From IMG/VR virus record IMGVR_UViG_3300047548_001122, positions 1-64,000 of that record: a stretch of 64,000 nt of DNA; one strand, written 5' to 3'. Position numbers and translations under genes: made by a program. The notes beneath the pieces are model-generated. The model had not been told where the DNA came from and did not search any database. It saw only the letters and a program-made list of their open reading frames with translations. Every line of letters starts with the position of its first letter. Positions within the stretch are counted from its first letter, which is position 1. Source of the stretch: a virus. Positions 10,487 through 44,962 of the stretch are shown here, piece by piece.

Positions 10487-10561
10487 GCAGCGGTAGCTTA
10501 AAGGTTAAAGCGTCCGTCTCTAAAACGGACAATGTGGGTTCGATTCCCACCCGCCGCACCA
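10487..10561 (+). tRNA. tRNA-Arg(TCT)
   Basis: Anticodon stem TCCGT/ACGGA with loop CTCTAAA, T arm GTGGG-TTCGATT-CCCAC, CCA. One A-C mismatch in the acceptor stem (position 3-70). A second Arg(TCT) lies at 16749. Confidence 0.93.
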
Positions 10562-15172: not shown

Positions 15173-16151
15173 TTAATTGGGAGTATAGTCTCATTAGAAT
15201 AAGTGGCGTGAGCCACCCAAAGCAGAAGTGTCCTACACACCTGCGCCAGTGATGGTTCATCTATACAAGCCTGCTCACTAGGGCGACCTAGCGATCACTG
15301 ATAAGACCGGTGGTTGTAACAATGAAGCTGGTGTAGTGGAAAGAATTGTATGCTCAAGCGCCGCAAGGTAACGCAAGTATACAGAGAGTAACGGGTGGTG
15401 CTGACCTCACTACAAAACCAATCAGTTAGTTGGTATGAGAAAGGGTAGTGCATTTGTCCAAGGTGTTGCAACCAAGGGCTTATGTGCAGTATTAATGGTT
15501 TATGGAACTGCCGTGAGGCGTTACATGAATCGTGAAATACTACTGAGTAGCCGGCAGGCAAAAGGTACGTGGTGTGTTGTATGATGTGGATTAATAGTTC
15601 ATGTCGCAACAGGAGCAGCACATCATAGTAGGTTCGATATAGCGTAATGGTAACGCGATTGCCTTTAGAGCAATTGACTGTTGGTTCGAGTCCAACTATC
15701 AAATAAAAAAAGCAAAGACTGCTCCGGTTAGTAGTGAAAGGTATCTAATACTTGGCTCGCAAGAGAATCAAGTCTGACGTAGCTCGCAAGGTGAAATCAG
15801 TTTATATCGGAAGATTCGTAAGGTGTTAGCGCACTTGAATGGCTCGCAAGGTCAACGGGTAAGAAGGTGTAGAGTAACTATTAACGACAAGTCTAATGCC
15901 TGACTTTCAAAACGGCGATACTGGTGATAGACGATGATACCGCAAGGGTTGTCGTGGATGTCGTGAGAAGTCTGACCCGCAAGGTCTTATATAATGCACG
16001 AAGTGTCACTATGGAAGGTGTAATCTCAGCCGACCACTTACTAAAGCACATTATTCTTTCAAGAGGTTCTTAGTCGTACCTGTAGTTTGTTTTAGTGTGC
16101 TTCAGTAATAAAATTCGCGTGTGAGGCGAGAGGAGAGTTCGTACTCTCCTC
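15173..16151 (+). ncRNA. large ornate structured RNA, GOLLD-like candidate
   Basis: Nearly 1 kb without a coding gene, starting at a strong promoter and ending in a hairpin. It is packed with GNRA-capped stems: GTGGC-GTGA-GCCAC (15203-15216), CTAGG-GCGA-CCTAG (15278-15291), GCC-GTGA-GGC (15510-15519) and six or more GCAA loops, four between 15750 and 15945. A complete tRNA-shaped element lies in the middle. Large size, phage and tRNA-array context and an embedded tRNA match what is known of GOLLD RNAs; I cannot align it to the family model. Ends are estimates. Confidence 0.6.
15633..15704 (+). tRNA. candidate suppressor tRNA(TTA), no CCA
   Basis: Perfect D arm (GCG/CGC), anticodon arm ATTGC-CTTTAGA-GCAAT and T arm GTTGG-TTCGAGT-CCAAC. 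The anticodon TTA (15665-15667) would read UAA. The acceptor TTCGATA/TATCAAA has one mismatch and no CCA is encoded. It may be a working ochre suppressor or a structural tRNA domain of the surrounding RNA. Confidence 0.6.
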
Positions 16152-34028: not shown

Positions 34029-34748
34029 ATGGTATTTAATCATGTAAAACTTAGTGAATTGGAGTATCAATTAGAATCGGTCACAACCGAAACCGGTAGA
34101 GTATATAAAACTCCAGAAGGAAATTTGTATCCCTCCATCACTACCGTTTTATCTTTTTCTTCAGACAAATCATTTCTCGAACAATGGAGAAAACGTATAG
34201 GTGAAGCTGAAGCAAATAGAATAACGAAAAAGTCATCTGACCGTGGAACTAAGTTACATGATGTTTGTGAGAAATATCTTCTAAACGAACTTAATGATTT
34301 TAAGATTCGTATGATGATGCCTGATATAAAGGACTTCTTCTTACAGTTAAAACCATTTATCGATAAACATGTTGGAGATGTTTATGGATTGGAATTACCA
34401 CTTTACAGTGATTCATTAAAACTGGCTGGTAGAACGGACTGTATCGCCGAGTGGGACGGTGAGTTATCGGTAATTGATTATAAAAACTCAATAAAAGAAA
34501 AGAACGAAGAATGGATTACAGGTTATTTCCTACAGTGTTCGGCATATGCCGTCATGTTTGAAGAAAGAACTGGTAGAGAAATTAAAAAAATTGTGGTGGC
34601 AATAGCAAATGAAGAAGGTAAACCTCAGATTTTTATCAAACAAAAAGATAAATATCTAGAAGAACTCCAATCTTATATCGAAAGGTTCTGGAAAAATGAA
34701 GAAAATTCTAACGCTATTGCTGTTATTGCCGGTAATAGCCTTTTGTAA
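34029..34748 (+). CDS. PD-(D/E)XK exonuclease, MGME1/RecB-like, 239 aa
   Basis: Nuclease motifs in order: DRGTKLHDVCE (about 70-80), AGRTDCIAEWDG and VIDYKNS (catalytic D-x-K near 155) and the helix QCSAYAVMFEE. Family members degrade single-stranded DNA ends; in phages they serve repair or recombination. The 3' end overlaps the next gene by 53 nt. Confidence 0.82.
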   Translation: MVFNHVKLSELEYQLESVTTETGRVYKTPEGNLYPSITTVLSFSSDKSFLEQWRKRIGEAEANRITKKSSDRGTKLHDVCEKYLLNELNDFKIRMMMPDIKDFFLQLKPFIDKHVGDVYGLELPLYSDSLKLAGRTDCIAEWDGELSVIDYKNSIKEKNEEWITGYFLQCSAYAVMFEERTGREIKKIVVAIANEEGKPQIFIKQKDKYLEELQSYIERFWKNEENSNAIAVIAGNSLL

Positions 34749-35044: not shown

Positions 35045-35212
35045 ATGTTTTACGCTCTTTTCGTAACATTTGTTTTGAACGGTAATCCTCCTGTAGAACA
35101 GAGATGGAAAGCATATGAAACGTTTGATGAATGTTGGGAAGCAGCTACAATAATAGTAAGAGGTAGAGATAATTTTACCGCAAGGTGTGTTTTAGTTGAA
35201 AGTAAAGAATAG
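35045..35212 (+). CDS. hypothetical protein, 55 aa
   Basis: Hydrophobic start (MFYALFVTFVLN) then a Trp/Thr-rich helix and two Cys. No strong ribosome site. It ends one base before the tmRNA acceptor segment, so tmRNA may be co-transcribed with it. Confidence 0.55.
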   Translation: MFYALFVTFVLNGNPPVEQRWKAYETFDECWEAATIIVRGRDNFTARCVLVESKE

Positions 35213-35278
35213 AATTGTTGTAATCCCTTCAAAGTGAAGGCATTCTGGACGTGGGTTCGACTCCCACCATCTCCACCA
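35213..35278 (+). ncRNA. ssrA: permuted tmRNA, acceptor piece (3' part of mature RNA)
   Basis: Contains hairpin CCTTC-AAAGT-GAAGG, then CTGGAC, T arm GTGGG-TTCGACT-CCCAC, acceptor strand CATCTCC, discriminator A and CCA (35276-35278). CATCTCC pairs with GGGGATG at 35369-35375 and CATTCTG (35241-35247) pairs with CAGGGTG (35388-35394) as helix P2. In ordinary tmRNA genes this piece lies downstream of the tag; here it lies upstream. The 5' end is approximate. Confidence 0.9.
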
Positions 35279-35368
35279 AAAGCGCAGATAGACGCTATGT
35301 TGGCTTCAGATCGCAACTAGCGAACATACGCGAGACAGGTTCCCACTACGAACTTCTGTGCTTTTGAT
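35279..35368 (+). other. tmRNA intervening segment (removed)
   Basis: Ninety nt linking the CCA end to the 5' end of the coding piece. Its ends pair over 12 bp (35277-35288 with 35355-35366), starting in the CCA, the same design as the tRNA spacers. Removal would leave a two-piece tmRNA. Confidence 0.8.
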
Positions 35369-35555
35369 GGGGATGACCTGGTTTCGACAGGGTGAGATAA
35401 TGGAGAAGGCAACACGGTAGGCGATGACCGTAAATCAAGCAAAAATAGTAACTGCAAACGATGAAAGTTACGCTCTAGCAGCTTAAGCTCTAGATGAGGT
35501 TTCGCAAGGTGTGCCTTATAATCAAAACACCTTGCACCAAATCACTTAGAGTAGA
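35369..35555 (+). ncRNA. ssrA: permuted tmRNA, coding piece with tag reading frame
   Basis: Starts GGGGATGACCTGG-TTTCGACAGG, the tmRNA D-loop analogue. The resume codon GCA is at 35439 and the tag reads AKIVTANDESYALAA up to TAA (35484-35486), ending in the protease signal ALAA. A 9-bp hairpin GCAAGGTGT/ACACCTTGC follows. No T arm occurs downstream, so the gene is truly permuted. It rescues stalled ribosomes and marks the product for proteolysis. Confidence 0.93.
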
Positions 35556-35572
35556 TTAATGATTTTCTCTAC

Positions 35573-35602
35573 TTGACTTTTGATTACATTATGATATATA
35601 AT
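35573..35602 (+). promoter_or_regulatory. sigma70-like promoter of pqqA
   Basis: TTGACT and TATAAT, 18-nt spacer. The leader contains CATGGC-TATTG-GCCATG and a strong ribosome site (TAGGAG) before pqqA. Confidence 0.8.
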
Positions 35603-35640
35603 TTCACATGGCTATTGGCCATGACAACTAGGAGAAAACT

Positions 35641-35715
35641 ATGAATTGGACTACACCTTCAGCACAAGATATGCGTTTCGGTTTCGAAATCACGATGTAT
35701 ATCGCAAATCGTTAA
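35641..35715 (+). CDS. pqqA: PQQ precursor peptide PqqA, 24 aa
   Basis: Ribosomally made substrate from which PqqE/D/F/B/C build the cofactor pyrroloquinoline quinone. The peptide shows the family pattern: W3, P6, R12 and the core GFEITMY with Glu16 and Tyr20 (E-x3-Y), the two residues that are cross-linked to become PQQ, then the basic end IANR. The 24-residue length is typical. AGGAG lies 6 nt upstream and a dedicated promoter precedes it. No other pqq gene is in the window, so host enzymes must process it. PQQ serves methanol dehydrogenases, pointing to a methylotroph host. Confidence 0.9.
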   Translation: MNWTTPSAQDMRFGFEITMYIANR

Positions 35716-35726
35716 TTGAAATAGTG

Positions 35727-35769
35727 GGTTTGGTGGCATCACCCGGATTTTTCCGAAAAACCACCAACC
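35727..35769 (+). terminator. hairpin after pqqA
   Basis: GGTTTGGTGG pairs with CCACCAACC (one bulge), with CGG/CCG in the loop. No T run follows, so it may stabilise the pqqA message rather than terminate it. Confidence 0.5.
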
Positions 35770-35844: not shown

Positions 35845-36117
35845 ATGAGTAATCTTACCCCGTTCGAGATTCGTCTTGAACTTCTAAAAATGGCGAAAGA
35901 ACTTTTGATGGAAGAATATTATTCCAACAAAGATCGCCTAACAAATGAATGGCAAGTAAAGGTAGAGTCCGCTAAACTAAACGGACAAGTTATACCTGAA
36001 CATCCAGCCTTTCCAACATATCCCTCAGAAAATGATATCATCGTCAAAGCACAGTCTTTGAACGGATTCGTTTCTAACATCACAGCAGAAAAGACACCAA
36101 GCAAAAAGTCTGCCTGA
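35845..36117 (+). CDS. conserved T4-like phage hypothetical, 90 aa
   Basis: CAGGAG ribosome site. TPFEIRLELLKMAKELLMEEYY, then PEHPAFPTYPSENDIIVKAQSLN, matches a family recalled from cyanophages. Helical N-terminus, proline-rich middle. Function unknown. Confidence 0.75.
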   Translation: MSNLTPFEIRLELLKMAKELLMEEYYSNKDRLTNEWQVKVESAKLNGQVIPEHPAFPTYPSENDIIVKAQSLNGFVSNITAEKTPSKKSA

Positions 36118-37874: not shown

Positions 37875-38470
37875 TTACTGGCTATGAGGCTTTTGGAATA
37901 TATAATGCACTCAAACTACATTTTACACAAGATTCGTATGATTACTTCAAGTACAATGGTAAAACGAATATTAGTTTGAGTTCATTTGAAAATCGTAAAG
38001 ATAAATGGCATTTCACAAAGCTTTCTAAGAAGTTTAATGATAAGGAAGAGTTAATTTTTTTCATCGTATCCAATCTTTTACAGAATGATAAATTTTGGAT
38101 AGGAGATTTATTGACCGAGGATTCTGATGTTAGATATTTAAGTAGAAAAAAAGTTTTACAGTCATTATCTTACTTTTTCGAAAATGACTGTAAAAAACTT
38201 TTTGATGGTGTTACAAACCCAAATGAATTGATTTTAGTAACTGGTGGAGATCATCCTAAATTACTGAAGTCTTTTATGAGAAAAGAAATTGAAATAGAAA
38301 CCTTGTGTTTGTTGGATTCTATTTTGAATTTCGTTCCTATGTGGAAACAAAAAATAAAAGACGATATAGTATGGCCAAATCATAGGTTAAAAATCGTGAA
38401 GTATAGAGATTTTTTACCAAAAGACAAGACCAAATTTAAAGTAATTTTAAGGAAGATCATAAATGCATAG
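37871..38470 (+). CDS. 59: helicase loader gp59, 199 aa
   Basis: MITGYEAFGIYNALKLHF and FKYNGKTNISLSSFENRKDKWHF are hallmarks of gp59, which loads the gp41 helicase onto gp32-coated forks. The length matches T4 (217) closely, and order 33-59-...-32 is conserved. The final codons overlap the carboxypeptidase gene. Confidence 0.9.
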   Translation: MITGYEAFGIYNALKLHFTQDSYDYFKYNGKTNISLSSFENRKDKWHFTKLSKKFNDKEELIFFIVSNLLQNDKFWIGDLLTEDSDVRYLSRKKVLQSLSYFFENDCKKLFDGVTNPNELILVTGGDHPKLLKSFMRKEIEIETLCLLDSILNFVPMWKQKIKDDIVWPNHRLKIVKYRDFLPKDKTKFKVILRKIINA

Positions 38471-39359
38471 ACTAATTCCACTAATAATTTTATTCTTTTG
38501 TTTTTCAGCACAAGCTAAACATAAAAAACACGGACCAGTTGATCCTCGTGAACCAGCTATTATACATTATGACGTTACAGAAGATAGAGTTCTTTACAAT
38601 AAAAACATAAACCAGACCAGGCAAATTGCTAGTGTTACAAAATTGATGACTGCTATGGTCGCTTTAGATTATAGCACAAATATGAAAAAGGAACTGAACT
38701 TAGTAGGAAAAGTCAGTTCTAGTTTGCCTCGTAAATCGTATAAGAGAGGTGAATTATTTGAAGCTATGTTGATTCGTAGTGATAATGCTGCAGCAGAAAC
38801 TTTGGCTAGTGATTATCCTGGAGGTAGAAAAGTTTTTATAGAAGAGATGAATAAGAAAGCTCAATCTCTGGGTATGAATAATACAGTTTTTCAAGACCCT
38901 ACTGGATTAAGTAATCATAACACCTCTACCGCGTCTGAAGTTGTGAATATGGTTATGGCAGCAAGTGATTATCCTTTGATACTGAATACCAGTACTAAGA
39001 AACAAACTTATATTGAAACAAAATATAAGAAAAAAGTTAGAACGATCATGCTGAGAAACACAAATCGGGCTATACTCTTTGAATTTGATAATGTAATTGT
39101 AAGTAAAACCGGATATACAACACCGGCAGGATTTTGTGTTGCGATTATGGTAGAACAAAAGAAAAAGAAGGTAGTTCAACAGGAAACTTACGGAATTATG
39201 GAATACTTTGTAGGTAAACCTGGACCTAAAGATCAAATTGTGGTAAATAAGCATGTTATTGTGATTTTGGGAGCCAAAAACCCTAAAGAAAGAGTTGACA
39301 CCGTGAAAGAAATAATGTATAATAATGTTATGGATCAAGATTTGGAAGAAGTAAAATGA
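38463..39359 (+). CDS. D-alanyl-D-alanine carboxypeptidase (PBP5-like), 298 aa
   Basis: Signal peptide (to about residue 18, SAQA) followed by a penicillin-binding domain with all three active-site motifs: S57-V-T-K60, S106-D-N108 and K215-T-G217. It trims D-Ala from peptidoglycan stem peptides in the periplasm. A phage copy between 59 and 32 is unusual; it may strengthen or reshape the wall, or block other phages. A promoter lies at its 3' end. Confidence 0.9.
   Translation: MHRLIPLIILFFCFSAQAKHKKHGPVDPREPAIIHYDVTEDRVLYNKNINQTRQIASVTKLMTAMVALDYSTNMKKELNLVGKVSSSLPRKSYKRGELFEAMLIRSDNAAAETLASDYPGGRKVFIEEMNKKAQSLGMNNTVFQDPTGLSNHNTSTASEVVNMVMAASDYPLILNTSTKKQTYIETKYKKKVRTIMLRNTNRAILFEFDNVIVSKTGYTTPAGFCVAIMVEQKKKKVVQQETYGIMEYFVGKPGPKDQIVVNKHVIVILGAKNPKERVDTVKEIMYNNVMDQDLEEVK
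39295..39323 (+). promoter_or_regulatory. internal sigma70-like promoter
   Basis: TTGACA and TATAAT, 17-nt spacer, TG-extended, in the last codons of the carboxypeptidase gene, reading toward 39356 and gene 32. Confidence 0.65.
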
Positions 39360-41242: not shown

Positions 41243-41268
41243 GAAAACCCACCGAAAGGTGGGTTTTC
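41243..41268 (+). terminator. bidirectional terminator between gene 32 and the minus-strand tail genes
   Basis: GAAAACCCACC-GAAA-GGTGGGTTTTC: an 11-bp stem flanked by A and T runs on both sides, so it can stop convergent transcripts. Confidence 0.92.
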
Positions 41269-43046
41269 TATATTAATTTTTGAGCTAAAATTGGTAAATA
41301 ATCGTTTTGAGTAGTATCATCACTTAATGCAATATTATTGTTTTCAAAGGTGGTATTGTTGACTATGACGACAGATGATGAATCTAATATACTATCAGTC
41401 ATTACATCAAATGAACTCATTTCTATTCTTTCTCCAGAATCTGGTGACATTATATTTTTAAACAAAGAAGAAACTTTGTCTGGCTTCTTTTCCGCTTCTC
41501 TTAAATTTAAAGGCTCATTTCCAAACTTTGACCTTCTACTTTGTAGATAAGAAGTTCCTGATTGTTTCAACCAGTCATTATTTGCCAAATATATTTTTTG
41601 CATTTTTTCATTACCAGGAAACAGTATTTCAACCATAGATCGATTTGCTGTTCCTTCTCGCTCAGCCTGCAATACCTTAGGTACATTGTGAGCTCCTATA
41701 CCCCAAGCCATTCCTAAATTTGCTGGAGTAACAGGAATTTTATTTTTCTCAAAATATGCAACATTTCCCTTCATTAATTCTACTGATAATATGTCTTGAG
41801 TTTTTTCATTAAAAAGGGTATTCATAGATAAACCGGTTCCCGCCAATATGCCAGGCGCGTAACCTTTTTCTCCTTTTTTGGGACCACCAGTCAGTTCTGT
41901 TCCAAATAATGTAGATGGCATAAATTGAAGGGCTCCAACAGCGGCTTGTCCTGGACTAATTTTATCTCTCGCTAACTGAAATTTAAGAACTTCCTCTAAT
42001 GTAAATTCTGTTAATTTTTTTCTTTTTCCTAAAAATTGTTCTGAGTATTCTTCAGCTGTTTGTTGTTGTTTAAAATTTGGATTAAGTTTCTTCTCTTTAG
42101 TTATAGGATCTGTTATGAATTTTTTATAAGTAAATTCTCTTCTGCCTGTTTTTTTATCTACAGTACTTTCTCCAAATGCAATATCATAATTTTTTGCAGA
42201 TTCGGATGCTTTAATCTTATCAAATACCTCTTTTAAACTAAAATAACCAGCAGGAATTTCAACGTTTGGCTGTATTACTTCAGCAGCATTTGCTGATGGT
42301 ATAAGATTAGTTACACCTTCTGTTATATTTTTTCCTATATCTTCTACGTTTAAATTTTTAGCTTTTAACATTAGAGAATCTATTAGTTCATTAATAGAAA
42401 CTGTTAAATTATTAGTAAAATCATCAAAAGATTTTTTTAAATCTATATTTTTGACTTTATCGATTGCAGTGGAAATTCCTTTAAATGCAAGAAACAATAA
42501 TCCACCAGCACCAAATACCAATAACATAGTACTTAAAGAACTACTAGATTTATCACTCTCTATCTTCGTGGGTTTTTTTGACTGTTCTCTTAATTTAGAT
42601 AATTGGGATTCATATTGTTGTTCTCTTCTAGCTGCAGCTTTAAAATACATGTCAGCTTTTGTTGCTGCATCCATTTTTTCCAATTTCAATAGTTTTACTA
42701 CATTTTGTCTAATTACATTAAAATCTCTATGAATTGATGGAAGAACAGATAAATTTTTTGTAGTGAGTGTAGTATTGTATTGTATTTGCTCGAATAGTGG
42801 TTTAACGTCAGAAACATCCATTGAAGAATCTTCAATGGATTTTCCAGTGGTTCTAGATGTTCCAGAAGTTTTTGCTTTGAATGGTTTTAAACCAGGAAAA
42901 AGAGATGCTAATAAACCTTTCTGATTTATAATTTGTCTAGGATCAAACTTTTCTTTTAATCTCTCTTTAATGCCGCCAGCTAAAGATCCGGTGACACTAC
43001 CACCTTGACTTCTTCTGTGAGCAACTATATCGGATAATCTTGACAT
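41268..43046 (-). CDS. virion transglycosylase sharing tape-measure N-terminus, 592 aa
   Basis: Residues 1-150 are closely similar to the neighbouring tape-measure-like protein (RRSQGGSVTGSLAGG, KERLKEKFDPRQ, LFPGLK). A short hydrophobic span follows near 175-190. Residues 290-480 look like a lytic transglycosylase: KASESAKNYDIAFGE (candidate catalytic Glu), AAVGALQFMPSTLFG and GMAWGIGAHNVPKV. It is probably packed in the tail to breach peptidoglycan during DNA entry. Confidence 0.75.
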   Translation of the reverse strand: MSRLSDIVAHRRSQGGSVTGSLAGGIKERLKEKFDPRQIINQKGLLASLFPGLKPFKAKTSGTSRTTGKSIEDSSMDVSDVKPLFEQIQYNTTLTTKNLSVLPSIHRDFNVIRQNVVKLLKLEKMDAATKADMYFKAAARREQQYESQLSKLREQSKKPTKIESDKSSSSLSTMLLVFGAGGLLFLAFKGISTAIDKVKNIDLKKSFDDFTNNLTVSINELIDSLMLKAKNLNVEDIGKNITEGVTNLIPSANAAEVIQPNVEIPAGYFSLKEVFDKIKASESAKNYDIAFGESTVDKKTGRREFTYKKFITDPITKEKKLNPNFKQQQTAEEYSEQFLGKRKKLTEFTLEEVLKFQLARDKISPGQAAVGALQFMPSTLFGTELTGGPKKGEKGYAPGILAGTGLSMNTLFNEKTQDILSVELMKGNVAYFEKNKIPVTPANLGMAWGIGAHNVPKVLQAEREGTANRSMVEILFPGNEKMQKIYLANNDWLKQSGTSYLQSRRSKFGNEPLNLREAEKKPDKVSSLFKNIMSPDSGERIEMSSFDVMTDSILDSSSVVIVNNTTFENNNIALSDDTTQNDYLPILAQKLI

Positions 43047-44962
43047 TATTTTACATTCTTATACCATGGAGTTACTAAAAGTTCATCATAATAATCGGAA
43101 ATAAAATTTTCATTCCATACAGAAGCCGGTTTTGGAGAAAAAGGTGGTTGACCTTTTTTTTGTTGAGAATTGTTTATTATAACAACTGGTTCTGAAACTT
43201 CACTCGTTATACCTTTATTTTGTTGAGTCATTTCAAGTATTTTTTCACTAAAACTTTTTCTAGCAGCGTTTGCTGATTCTGTAATTACGTTTTTAAATTC
43301 TGTACCTTTTTCGGTTACAAAATTTAATGCGTTTCCTGCAACAGTTTTTCCTTGATTTTCTAAAGCATCAACTTCTTTTTGAACCGCTTCTTCTATACCT
43401 GTTGCTTTCCAAATTTTATTGGAGATTCCTGCCAATACGTTAGGATCATACTGTCGTAATTTTGCCCTCTCAATTTGATTTTTTAAAGTTTCATAGTATT
43501 GAGGTGCTAAAGTATCTTTCGCTATTTTATCAACATCATTCAACATACTATCTTGCAATTCCATTAGTCTTGATGAATAATTGCTTAATTCTTCACTTCT
43601 TCTCTTCTCAGCTTCTGGACCAACTGCAGCAGTGTGTTTCTTTAATTTTAGATATTTTTCAAGCAATTCTAAATATTGTTCTCTTTTGTCTCCCCAAGAA
43701 GTAGCTTGTTCTTTTGTCATATACAATAGTTGGGGGTCTTTTATTCCAGGAATTGCTACTTCGTATGGATATGGTGCCATCACACTTTTTCTCTTTTGAT
43801 TTCCTTCAATATTGTATATTTCAGATAAAGTTTTTTTATTTAAAAATTTAGCTGCTAAATTATCTGGTCGATCCATACTTTCGTACATTTTGCCAGTTTT
43901 TCCCCTTTGTATTAAAGGTTTTTCTGGAGTACCTCCGCCTCTTCTGTCGCTTGTTGGAAAAACAGTGTTTGATTCATCTTTTAGTTTATTTAAAAAATTG
44001 AAATTTTCTAGAGGATCTTCATTAGAATAAAATTCATCTATTATTTTTGCTCCTAATGCAGCAGCGATTACAGGAAGAGCATAAGGAAGTATTCCCATTG
44101 CTAACCTTGTCAAACCTAAACGTGAAAATAACCAACCTATTATGCTAGTTCCCAATGAAGTTAAAATTCTAAAACCTAATCCGGCACCTTTAAAAAACTC
44201 TAATATTTTTTTTCCAAAAAACACTTCAAGAGCTAATCCAAGTCCTGTTTTTAAAAATCCAGCAAGTCCTAAAATAGTGTCCATTAAAAAACCAACTGCA
44301 CTCGATATAACATTAATTAGAAGTTCACCTAATAATTGAAATGTTCCGATAATTGCTTTTCCTAATGTTACTATGGAATTTATTATTAATTTAATTCCTT
44401 TTACAATAGAGGATAAGATAGTTCCTAAAAGTCCTTTTTTATCATCTTTTTCACCATCTTTAAGATTACTTAATTCTCGACTTTTGTTTCTTTCCTTTTT
44501 CAATTCTCTTTCGTATTTGTCCTCTCGATCTTTTGCTTTCACAAAATACATATCGGCTTTAGTTCTTGCATCACCACCTTTCATTTTAACCAATTTTACC
44601 ATATTCTGACGTATTACATTTACATCTCTGTGTAGAGCGGGTAAAACCATGGTATTTTTTGCAGTTACTTTCGTATTAAAAGAAATGGTTTCTAATATAG
44701 GTTTAATTTCATCAAAAGATGTTCTCTGTAGCGAAGAACTTGACAATTCTTTTGCGGAAGTTTTAGCTTGATATGCTTTTAATCCTGGAAATAAAGCAGC
44801 CAATAAACCCCTTTGATTTACAAGTTGTCTAGGATCAAATTTTTCCTTTAATCTTTCTTTAATGCCACCAGCTAAAGATCCGGTGACACTTCCACCTTGA
44901 CTTCTTTTGTAGGCTATGATTTCAGACAATCTGTTTGAAGTAGGTTTATTTTTAGTTGCCAT
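43046..44962 (-). CDS. tape measure-like tail protein, 638 aa
   Basis: Shared N-terminal domain (1-150), then a long hydrophobic central zone (about 185-305: GLLGTILSSIVKGIKLIIN, AVGFLMDTILGLAGFLKTG, LPVIAAALGAKII) and a helical C-terminus, as in tape measure proteins. T4 gp29 has 590 residues and the same neighbourhood (hub genes). It lies just downstream of the chaperone pair with a frameshift site, the standard place for a tape measure gene. Overlaps the transglycosylase start by 1 nt. Confidence 0.7.
   Translation of the reverse strand: MATKNKPTSNRLSEIIAYKRSQGGSVTGSLAGGIKERLKEKFDPRQLVNQRGLLAALFPGLKAYQAKTSAKELSSSSLQRTSFDEIKPILETISFNTKVTAKNTMVLPALHRDVNVIRQNMVKLVKMKGGDARTKADMYFVKAKDREDKYERELKKERNKSRELSNLKDGEKDDKKGLLGTILSSIVKGIKLIINSIVTLGKAIIGTFQLLGELLINVISSAVGFLMDTILGLAGFLKTGLGLALEVFFGKKILEFFKGAGLGFRILTSLGTSIIGWLFSRLGLTRLAMGILPYALPVIAAALGAKIIDEFYSNEDPLENFNFLNKLKDESNTVFPTSDRRGGGTPEKPLIQRGKTGKMYESMDRPDNLAAKFLNKKTLSEIYNIEGNQKRKSVMAPYPYEVAIPGIKDPQLLYMTKEQATSWGDKREQYLELLEKYLKLKKHTAAVGPEAEKRRSEELSNYSSRLMELQDSMLNDVDKIAKDTLAPQYYETLKNQIERAKLRQYDPNVLAGISNKIWKATGIEEAVQKEVDALENQGKTVAGNALNFVTEKGTEFKNVITESANAARKSFSEKILEMTQQNKGITSEVSEPVVIINNSQQKKGQPPFSPKPASVWNENFISDYYDELLVTPWYKNVK

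Follow-up and report, generated by a model that had tools for sequence, protein, structure and literature searches.

The window analysed here is a 64,000-nucleotide stretch of a 214,237-bp IMG/VR virus contig (G000). At positions 35641–35715 on the plus strand it holds a frame that translates to MNWTTPSAQDMRFGFEITMYIANR, with the stop codon lying within these coordinates. A first-pass annotation had named this frame as pqqA, the gene for the PQQ precursor peptide, and had suggested a profile search as a check. Both curated profiles bore out the name: the 24-residue peptide scored 38.7 bits against Pfam PF08042 (cut-off 21.1, E 9e-10) and 38.4 bits against the NCBIfam equivalog TIGR02107 (cut-off 20, E 8e-10). 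The residues listed at that stage, W3, P6, R12, the core G14-F-E16-I-T-M-Y20 and the C-terminal IANR, all agree with the translation. PqqE is reported to cross-link Glu16 and Tyr20 of PqqA while the peptide is bound by PqqD, which binds the leader (PMC10906245). The Glu-x3-Tyr cross-linking pair of the family corresponds to E16 and Y20 of the phage peptide, and the residues of the N-terminal leader, the part that PqqD would be predicted to bind, are conserved as well. Judged by translation, profiles and conserved residues, the frame encodes a full, intact PqqA, the sole one in the contig. The features of the locus are listed in Table 1.

Table 1. Features in and around the phage pqqA gene (window positions)
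Feature	Position	Strand	Basis or remark
PD-(D/E)XK nuclease, conserved 5' neighbour	34029..34748	+	PF12705; used as pqqA-independent bait
Permuted two-piece tmRNA, tag ANDESYALAA, directly 5' of pqqA	35186..35577	+	ARAGORN; Rfam RF01850 (E 7e-51), RF04321
Putative sigma-70-like promoter, TTGACT-18-TATAAT	35573..35602	+	consensus match only, 11/12 positions
Short hairpin CATGGC-tattg-GCCATG, 17 nt, between -10 and SD	35607..35623	+	fold
Shine-Dalgarno AGGAG	35630..35634	+	sequence; 6 nt upstream of ATG
pqqA, 24-residue PQQ precursor peptide	35641..35715	+	translation, PF08042, TIGR02107, relatives
Stem-loop 3' of pqqA, possible transcript end, without clear T run	35727..35769	+	fold
90-aa protein, function unassigned, conserved 3' neighbour, no part in PqqA role claimed	35845..36117	+	91% in L092, 71% in L100

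The genes near pqqA code for relatives of T4-like baseplate wedge, baseplate hub, tail-tube cap, gp59, gp32 and DsbA proteins, and the large baseplate protein has its top database match in methylophage Melnitz (39%). The contig is a T4-like myovirus, and pqqA lies within a true viral genome, not in host contamination. When 24 kb of the window were compared with phages by megablast, no match was obtained. The contig carries 28 tRNAs and the permuted tmRNA (ARAGORN; Rfam). Two of the ARAGORN tRNAs in this large set, at 10487-10561 (anticodon CTA, labelled Pyl) and 15632-15705 (anticodon TTA, labelled Stop), are possible suppressors for TAG and TAA. The window also encodes a phage D-Ala-D-Ala carboxypeptidase-like protein at 38463-39359 (Peptidase_S11, E 3e-40) and, at 41268-44962 on the minus strand, two adjacent large proteins of 592 and 638 aa with no PHROG match, one of which gave a weak DUF6987 hint only. 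The tags of the tmRNAs beside pqqA vary among the window and the loci L092, L343, L345, L350, L100 and L070 (ANDESYALAA, ANDSEYALAA, ANDETFALAA and ANDEQFALAA). The tmRNA is one-piece in the Methylotenera, Methylovorus and Comamonadaceae examined and permuted in Thauera; the nucleotide matches were short, and host inference from the tmRNA was rejected as uninformative.

The good ribosome site proposed for the gene is indeed present (Table 1), and such sites are common to phage copies. Among the matches listed, 150 of 159 distinct phage pqqA upstream regions have an SD core, whereas a control offset gave 9 of 159; the IANR class gave 78 of 81 copies vs. 3 at the control offset. These sequences are related, and neither these counts nor those for the hairpin are independent events. 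The gene had also been credited with a promoter of its own. The two hexamers are in the proposed place; when the local 100 bp were shuffled 1000 times, their score of 11/12 was reached in 4 cases. The hexamers are present in relative L349, but they are degenerate in L092 and L343, so the promoter was rejected as a conserved element and is kept as a plausible, putative one. Between it and the ribosome site lies the short hairpin. A perfect stem of ≥6 bp lies just 5' of the SD in 48% of the IANR-class copies among the matches listed (9% in shuffles); nearly all of these stems begin between -44 and -33, and their sequences are unrelated between phages. The corresponding figures for bacterial pqqA copies are 14 and 7%. 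The 5' hairpin is a candidate stabiliser that would protect a short mRNA; an operator is the alternative reading. The arms of the downstream stem-loop (GGTTTGGTGG...CCACC) are similar in relatives L092, L343, L345 and L350.

Related phages, which the first-pass annotation had proposed to search, carry the gene too. With the upstream nuclease as a bait independent of pqqA we recovered 30 phage loci; pqqA lay downstream in 11/11 at ≥74% identity and in 0/19 of the more distant relatives (≤73%), some on short contigs. ARAGORN placed a permuted tmRNA upstream in 8 of 9 close relatives tested. The order tmRNA, pqqA, 90-aa neighbour, cell-wall hydrolase is kept in the distant relative L100, and L070 has the order nuclease, tmRNA, pqqA, hydrolase, gp59, but with a PqqA of a different type. 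This other phage type (core RLGFE(I/V)TMYF) was seen in L070 (near 3.3 kb), L020, L028, L036, L043 and L063; its presence in L070 within the gene order of the window suggests peptide exchange with host type. In the Venkman family, where YqaJ served as bait, pqqA was found in 26 of 28 loci at ≥92% identity (in the remaining two the contig stops short), 1 of 4 at 79-80%, 4 of 4 at 62-68% and none at ≤53%.

The pN/pS ratio over 164 distinct phage copies (among the matches listed) was ∼0.21, a value biased somewhat low since the search pattern itself requires W, P, R, G, E and Y. Between the window pqqA and most of its close relatives pN was 0.04-0.07 at pS of 0.15-0.68. In a scan anchored on the leader only, with the core left free, Glu and Tyr were kept in 120/120 copies (among the matches listed). 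These sequence comparisons indicate that phage pqqA is under purifying selection. Alternatively, pqqA might be a functionless host gene copied by chance; imprecise excision has been proposed for phage capture of tmRNA genes (PMC9004378). Such a passenger would not be expected to be under purifying selection, to keep a ribosome site in 150 of 159 copies (among the matches listed), to hold a fixed position throughout the 11/11 clade, or to recur in several unrelated lineages, and we regard this explanation as extremely improbable.

The claim that the phage carries no modifying enzymes was upheld: a search of the window and the remainder of the contig for relatives of pqqB, C, D and E was negative, and no complete pqqABCDE operon was found. 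Among the matches listed, pqqB-E were found beside pqqA in 0/166 and 0/109 viral loci vs. 38/119 bacterial loci. Nor was a PQQ beta-propeller dehydrogenase, mdh included, found on G000, a contig that may be incomplete. We extended this search to 49 carrier records (G000 and 48 others), comparing each record with one of two PQQ-dehydrogenase profiles, and 48 of the 49 were negative. The single positive record, G422/L068 (IMGVR_UViG_3300025120_009955), is of bacterial look. Its xoxF lies ∼6 kb from pqqA; bacterial-looking neighbours encode a formate dehydrogenase-like protein, SoxYZ and adenylate cyclase, and no protein of the phage reference set matched the contig. The reading that a phage here carries a methanol dehydrogenase of its own was set aside, and the contig is probably a bacterial fragment. 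Since 48 of 49 carrier records gave no PQQ dehydrogenase, the enzymes fed by the phage are most likely those of the host.

A solitary substrate gene with no enzyme beside it could also act as a decoy, its peptide competing with host PqqA for PqqD/PqqE and so shutting down host PQQ synthesis. A decoy need not keep the cross-linking residues, yet Glu and Tyr stand in 120/120 copies (among the matches listed) together with a host-type leader, and the hosts themselves maintain many solitary pqqA copies; we consider it very unlikely. PqqA or a derived peptide might instead serve a PQQ-unrelated role, e.g., in signalling, host shut-off or superinfection exclusion. Tiny and well signalled, the gene sits near a tmRNA or tRNA in many phages: among the matches listed for the IANR class, 31/116 copies lie no farther than ∼500 bp from a permuted tmRNA, and 17/116 are near a tRNA. 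The constraint is, however, on the leader and on the Glu-x3-Tyr core familiar from PQQ chemistry, and where the host of a carrier is known it is a PQQ user, which leaves this role a slim chance.

Among 50,697 phage records, PqqA was found in Melnitz (four isolates), P19250A, Venkman, MEP301, MEP401, MEP402 and one Manatee Spring podovirus, in none of which it is annotated as pqqA. The methylophage isolates span at least four lineages (Melnitz, Venkman/P19250A, MEP301 and MEP401/402). Melnitz is T4-like and MEP402 is classed in Zobellviridae; by structural genes Venkman/P19250A and MEP301 belong to other lineages. The other two matches, filed under Acinetobacter phage MD-2021a (CAKLQF020000010.1 and CAKLQH020000055.1/L008), were rejected, as they hold a bacterial pqqABCDE operon; at least the pqq stretch of these two records is bacterial chromosome filed as phage. 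In the collection, phages that infect the PQQ makers Pseudomonas and Acinetobacter yielded no pqqA of their own, so a benefit of PqqA to phages is not general. Three scans of IMG/VR with degenerate DNA patterns gave at least 274 pqqA loci (120, then 45 and 109 new), and every readable match among those listed has a complete leader. As a guard against contamination the loci were compared with the proteins of isolated methylophages and of G000. Phage homologues were found in 141/165 and 97/109 viral loci (among the matches listed) vs. 0/119 bacterial pqqA loci, which argues that these loci are really phage. Three contigs with a solitary pqqA are of jumbo-phage size: L051 (356 kb), L485 (364 kb) and L487 (231 kb).

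The first-pass annotation had placed the window phage in a methylotroph and had recommended a comparison with PqqA of Methylophilaceae. That comparison did not support a methylotroph host: counted over the 22 residues from Trp on, 56 Methylophilaceae copies share at most 16/22 with the window peptide, whereas Comamonadaceae and other Burkholderiales reach up to 20/22, most with the same extra residue before Trp. The peptide is of the type MxW...EITMYIANR, as in Comamonadaceae/Burkholderiaceae-like bacteria, and does not have the Methylophilaceae form MW...EVTMYV(M/C)N(K/R). The closest copy among 399 Burkholderiales-order genomes, 88% identical, is part of a pqq operon; among solved structures, a protein encoded near it is most closely related to quinoprotein ethanol dehydrogenases. 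The window phage probably infects a member of the Burkholderiales other than Methylophilaceae, and the enzymes served may be of the ethanol or XoxF type.

Methanol oxidation, the step that the phage had been thought to keep running, is thus not supported for the window phage, because its PqqA is of the non-Methylophilaceae type and the nearest bacterial copy lies by an ethanol dehydrogenase. A methylotroph host is the right reading for the isolated methylophages: all nine named pqqA-positive isolates with a stated host infect Methylophilales. This count would favour a methanol-specific version, in which the host is a methylotroph and phage PqqA serves its methanol dehydrogenase during infection. 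So would the finding of mdh on a Baikal phage and on another contig assigned to the same virus, one of the two also with pqqA, and the strong PQQ alcohol dehydrogenase matches of several genomes with a close PqqA. The genomes with the closest PqqA mostly hold several such dehydrogenases. With the Burkholderiales-type peptide, the 88% match beside a quinoprotein ethanol dehydrogenase and mdh not found on G000, we consider this version rather unlikely for the window phage.

In our preferred reading, the stand-alone pqqA mini-gene quite probably resupplies the consumed precursor of PQQ synthesis for use by host enzymes. This supply of substrate, as proposed in the first-pass annotation, is well supported by the profile matches, the conserved Glu/Tyr pair, purifying selection, the copies in relatives, and a contig on which pqqB-E and a PQQ dehydrogenase were not found. 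On infection, host PqqD would bind phage PqqA, host PqqE would cross-link it at Glu16-Tyr20, and host PqqB, PqqC and peptidases would process it to PQQ, which would load the PQQ-dependent alcohol/aldehyde dehydrogenases of the host. Each PQQ takes one PqqA, the sole component of the pathway that is consumed one-for-one. With host transcription halted by phage takeover, PqqA would for this reason plausibly be the first to run short, and a 75-bp gene could restore flux with enzymes borrowed from the host. We infer expression, acceptance by host PqqD/PqqE, limitation by PqqA and benefit to the phage. The dosage logic has a host precedent, because Methylophilaceae multiply pqqA without the other pqq genes: they hold 3-12 pqqA but, save in one case, a single set of the others (PMC4109929), and in a methanol-grown PQQ producer two of five pqqA are strongly expressed (PMC9851590). 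In Acetobacter, PqqA was not the sole limit, since overexpression of pqqAB raised PQQ by 29% only vs. eightfold with the whole cluster (PMC7936290). A wider proposal, on which we are evenly divided, is that precursor-only supply by a hairpin-capped mini-transcript, often by a tmRNA, is convergent and common in unrelated phage lineages of PQQ-dependent bacteria with methylotroph and non-methylotroph hosts, and that the peptide type tracks host PqqD/PqqE.

The idea is not new in kind. Coutinho et al. (2020) described pqqA and methanol dehydrogenase of a Baikal phage, with enhanced methanol oxidation as the proposed effect (PMC7678222), and a 2026 reservoir study listed viral pqqA, pqqD and pqqE among phosphate-solubilising genes (PMC13188868). 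In the main text, pqqA goes unmentioned by the Melnitz, Venkman and MEP301 papers, by the work on the OM43 phage group (PMC10580990) and by a survey of viral metabolic genes across the ocean. The breadth, solitary design and tmRNA neighbourhood of phage pqqA are undescribed in the open literature covered. Gene callers skip genes of 22-26 residues, and phage pqqA has thus been missed even in isolated, published methylophages. The gene bears on C1 and alcohol oxidation and is recurrent in phages; its solitary and mostly unannotated presence in hundreds of phage sequences, which belong to several unrelated lineages, suggests that phages sustain host alcohol oxidation by replenishing this single raw material. 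The gene can serve as a marker of phages whose hosts make PQQ, and with the cultured pairs of Melnitz, Venkman and MEP301, PqqA limitation in infected cells is now testable. If true, this would be a clear example of a host pathway to which a phage contributes the stoichiometric substrate but no enzyme.

Compared with PqqA of the bacterial pqqABCDE pathway (PF08042/TIGR02107), the phage copy is alike in length, W3/P6/R12, the GFE(I/V)TMY core and the Glu-x3-Tyr pair; it differs in being phage-borne and solitary, in adjoining a tmRNA, and in its short 5' hairpin, which is rarer in bacterial copies than in phage ones. The solitary extra pqqA on Methylophilaceae chromosomes (PMC4109929, PMC9851590) is also a substrate gene multiplied without the enzymes, but those copies are chromosomal. 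Methylophages Melnitz, Venkman, P19250A, MEP301, MEP401 and MEP402 carry, like the window phage, a solitary, intact and unannotated pqqA; their PqqA is of the V(M/L)NK or IMTR type, and only Melnitz is a T4-like relative. For Baikal phage VP_266 (PMC7678222), too, pqqA has been proposed as an auxiliary metabolic gene for PQQ. VP_266 is one contig with mdh and an assigned Methylophilaceae host, whereas the window phage has a Burkholderiales-type PqqA, with no dehydrogenase found, and phage pqqA is shown here to be widely distributed.
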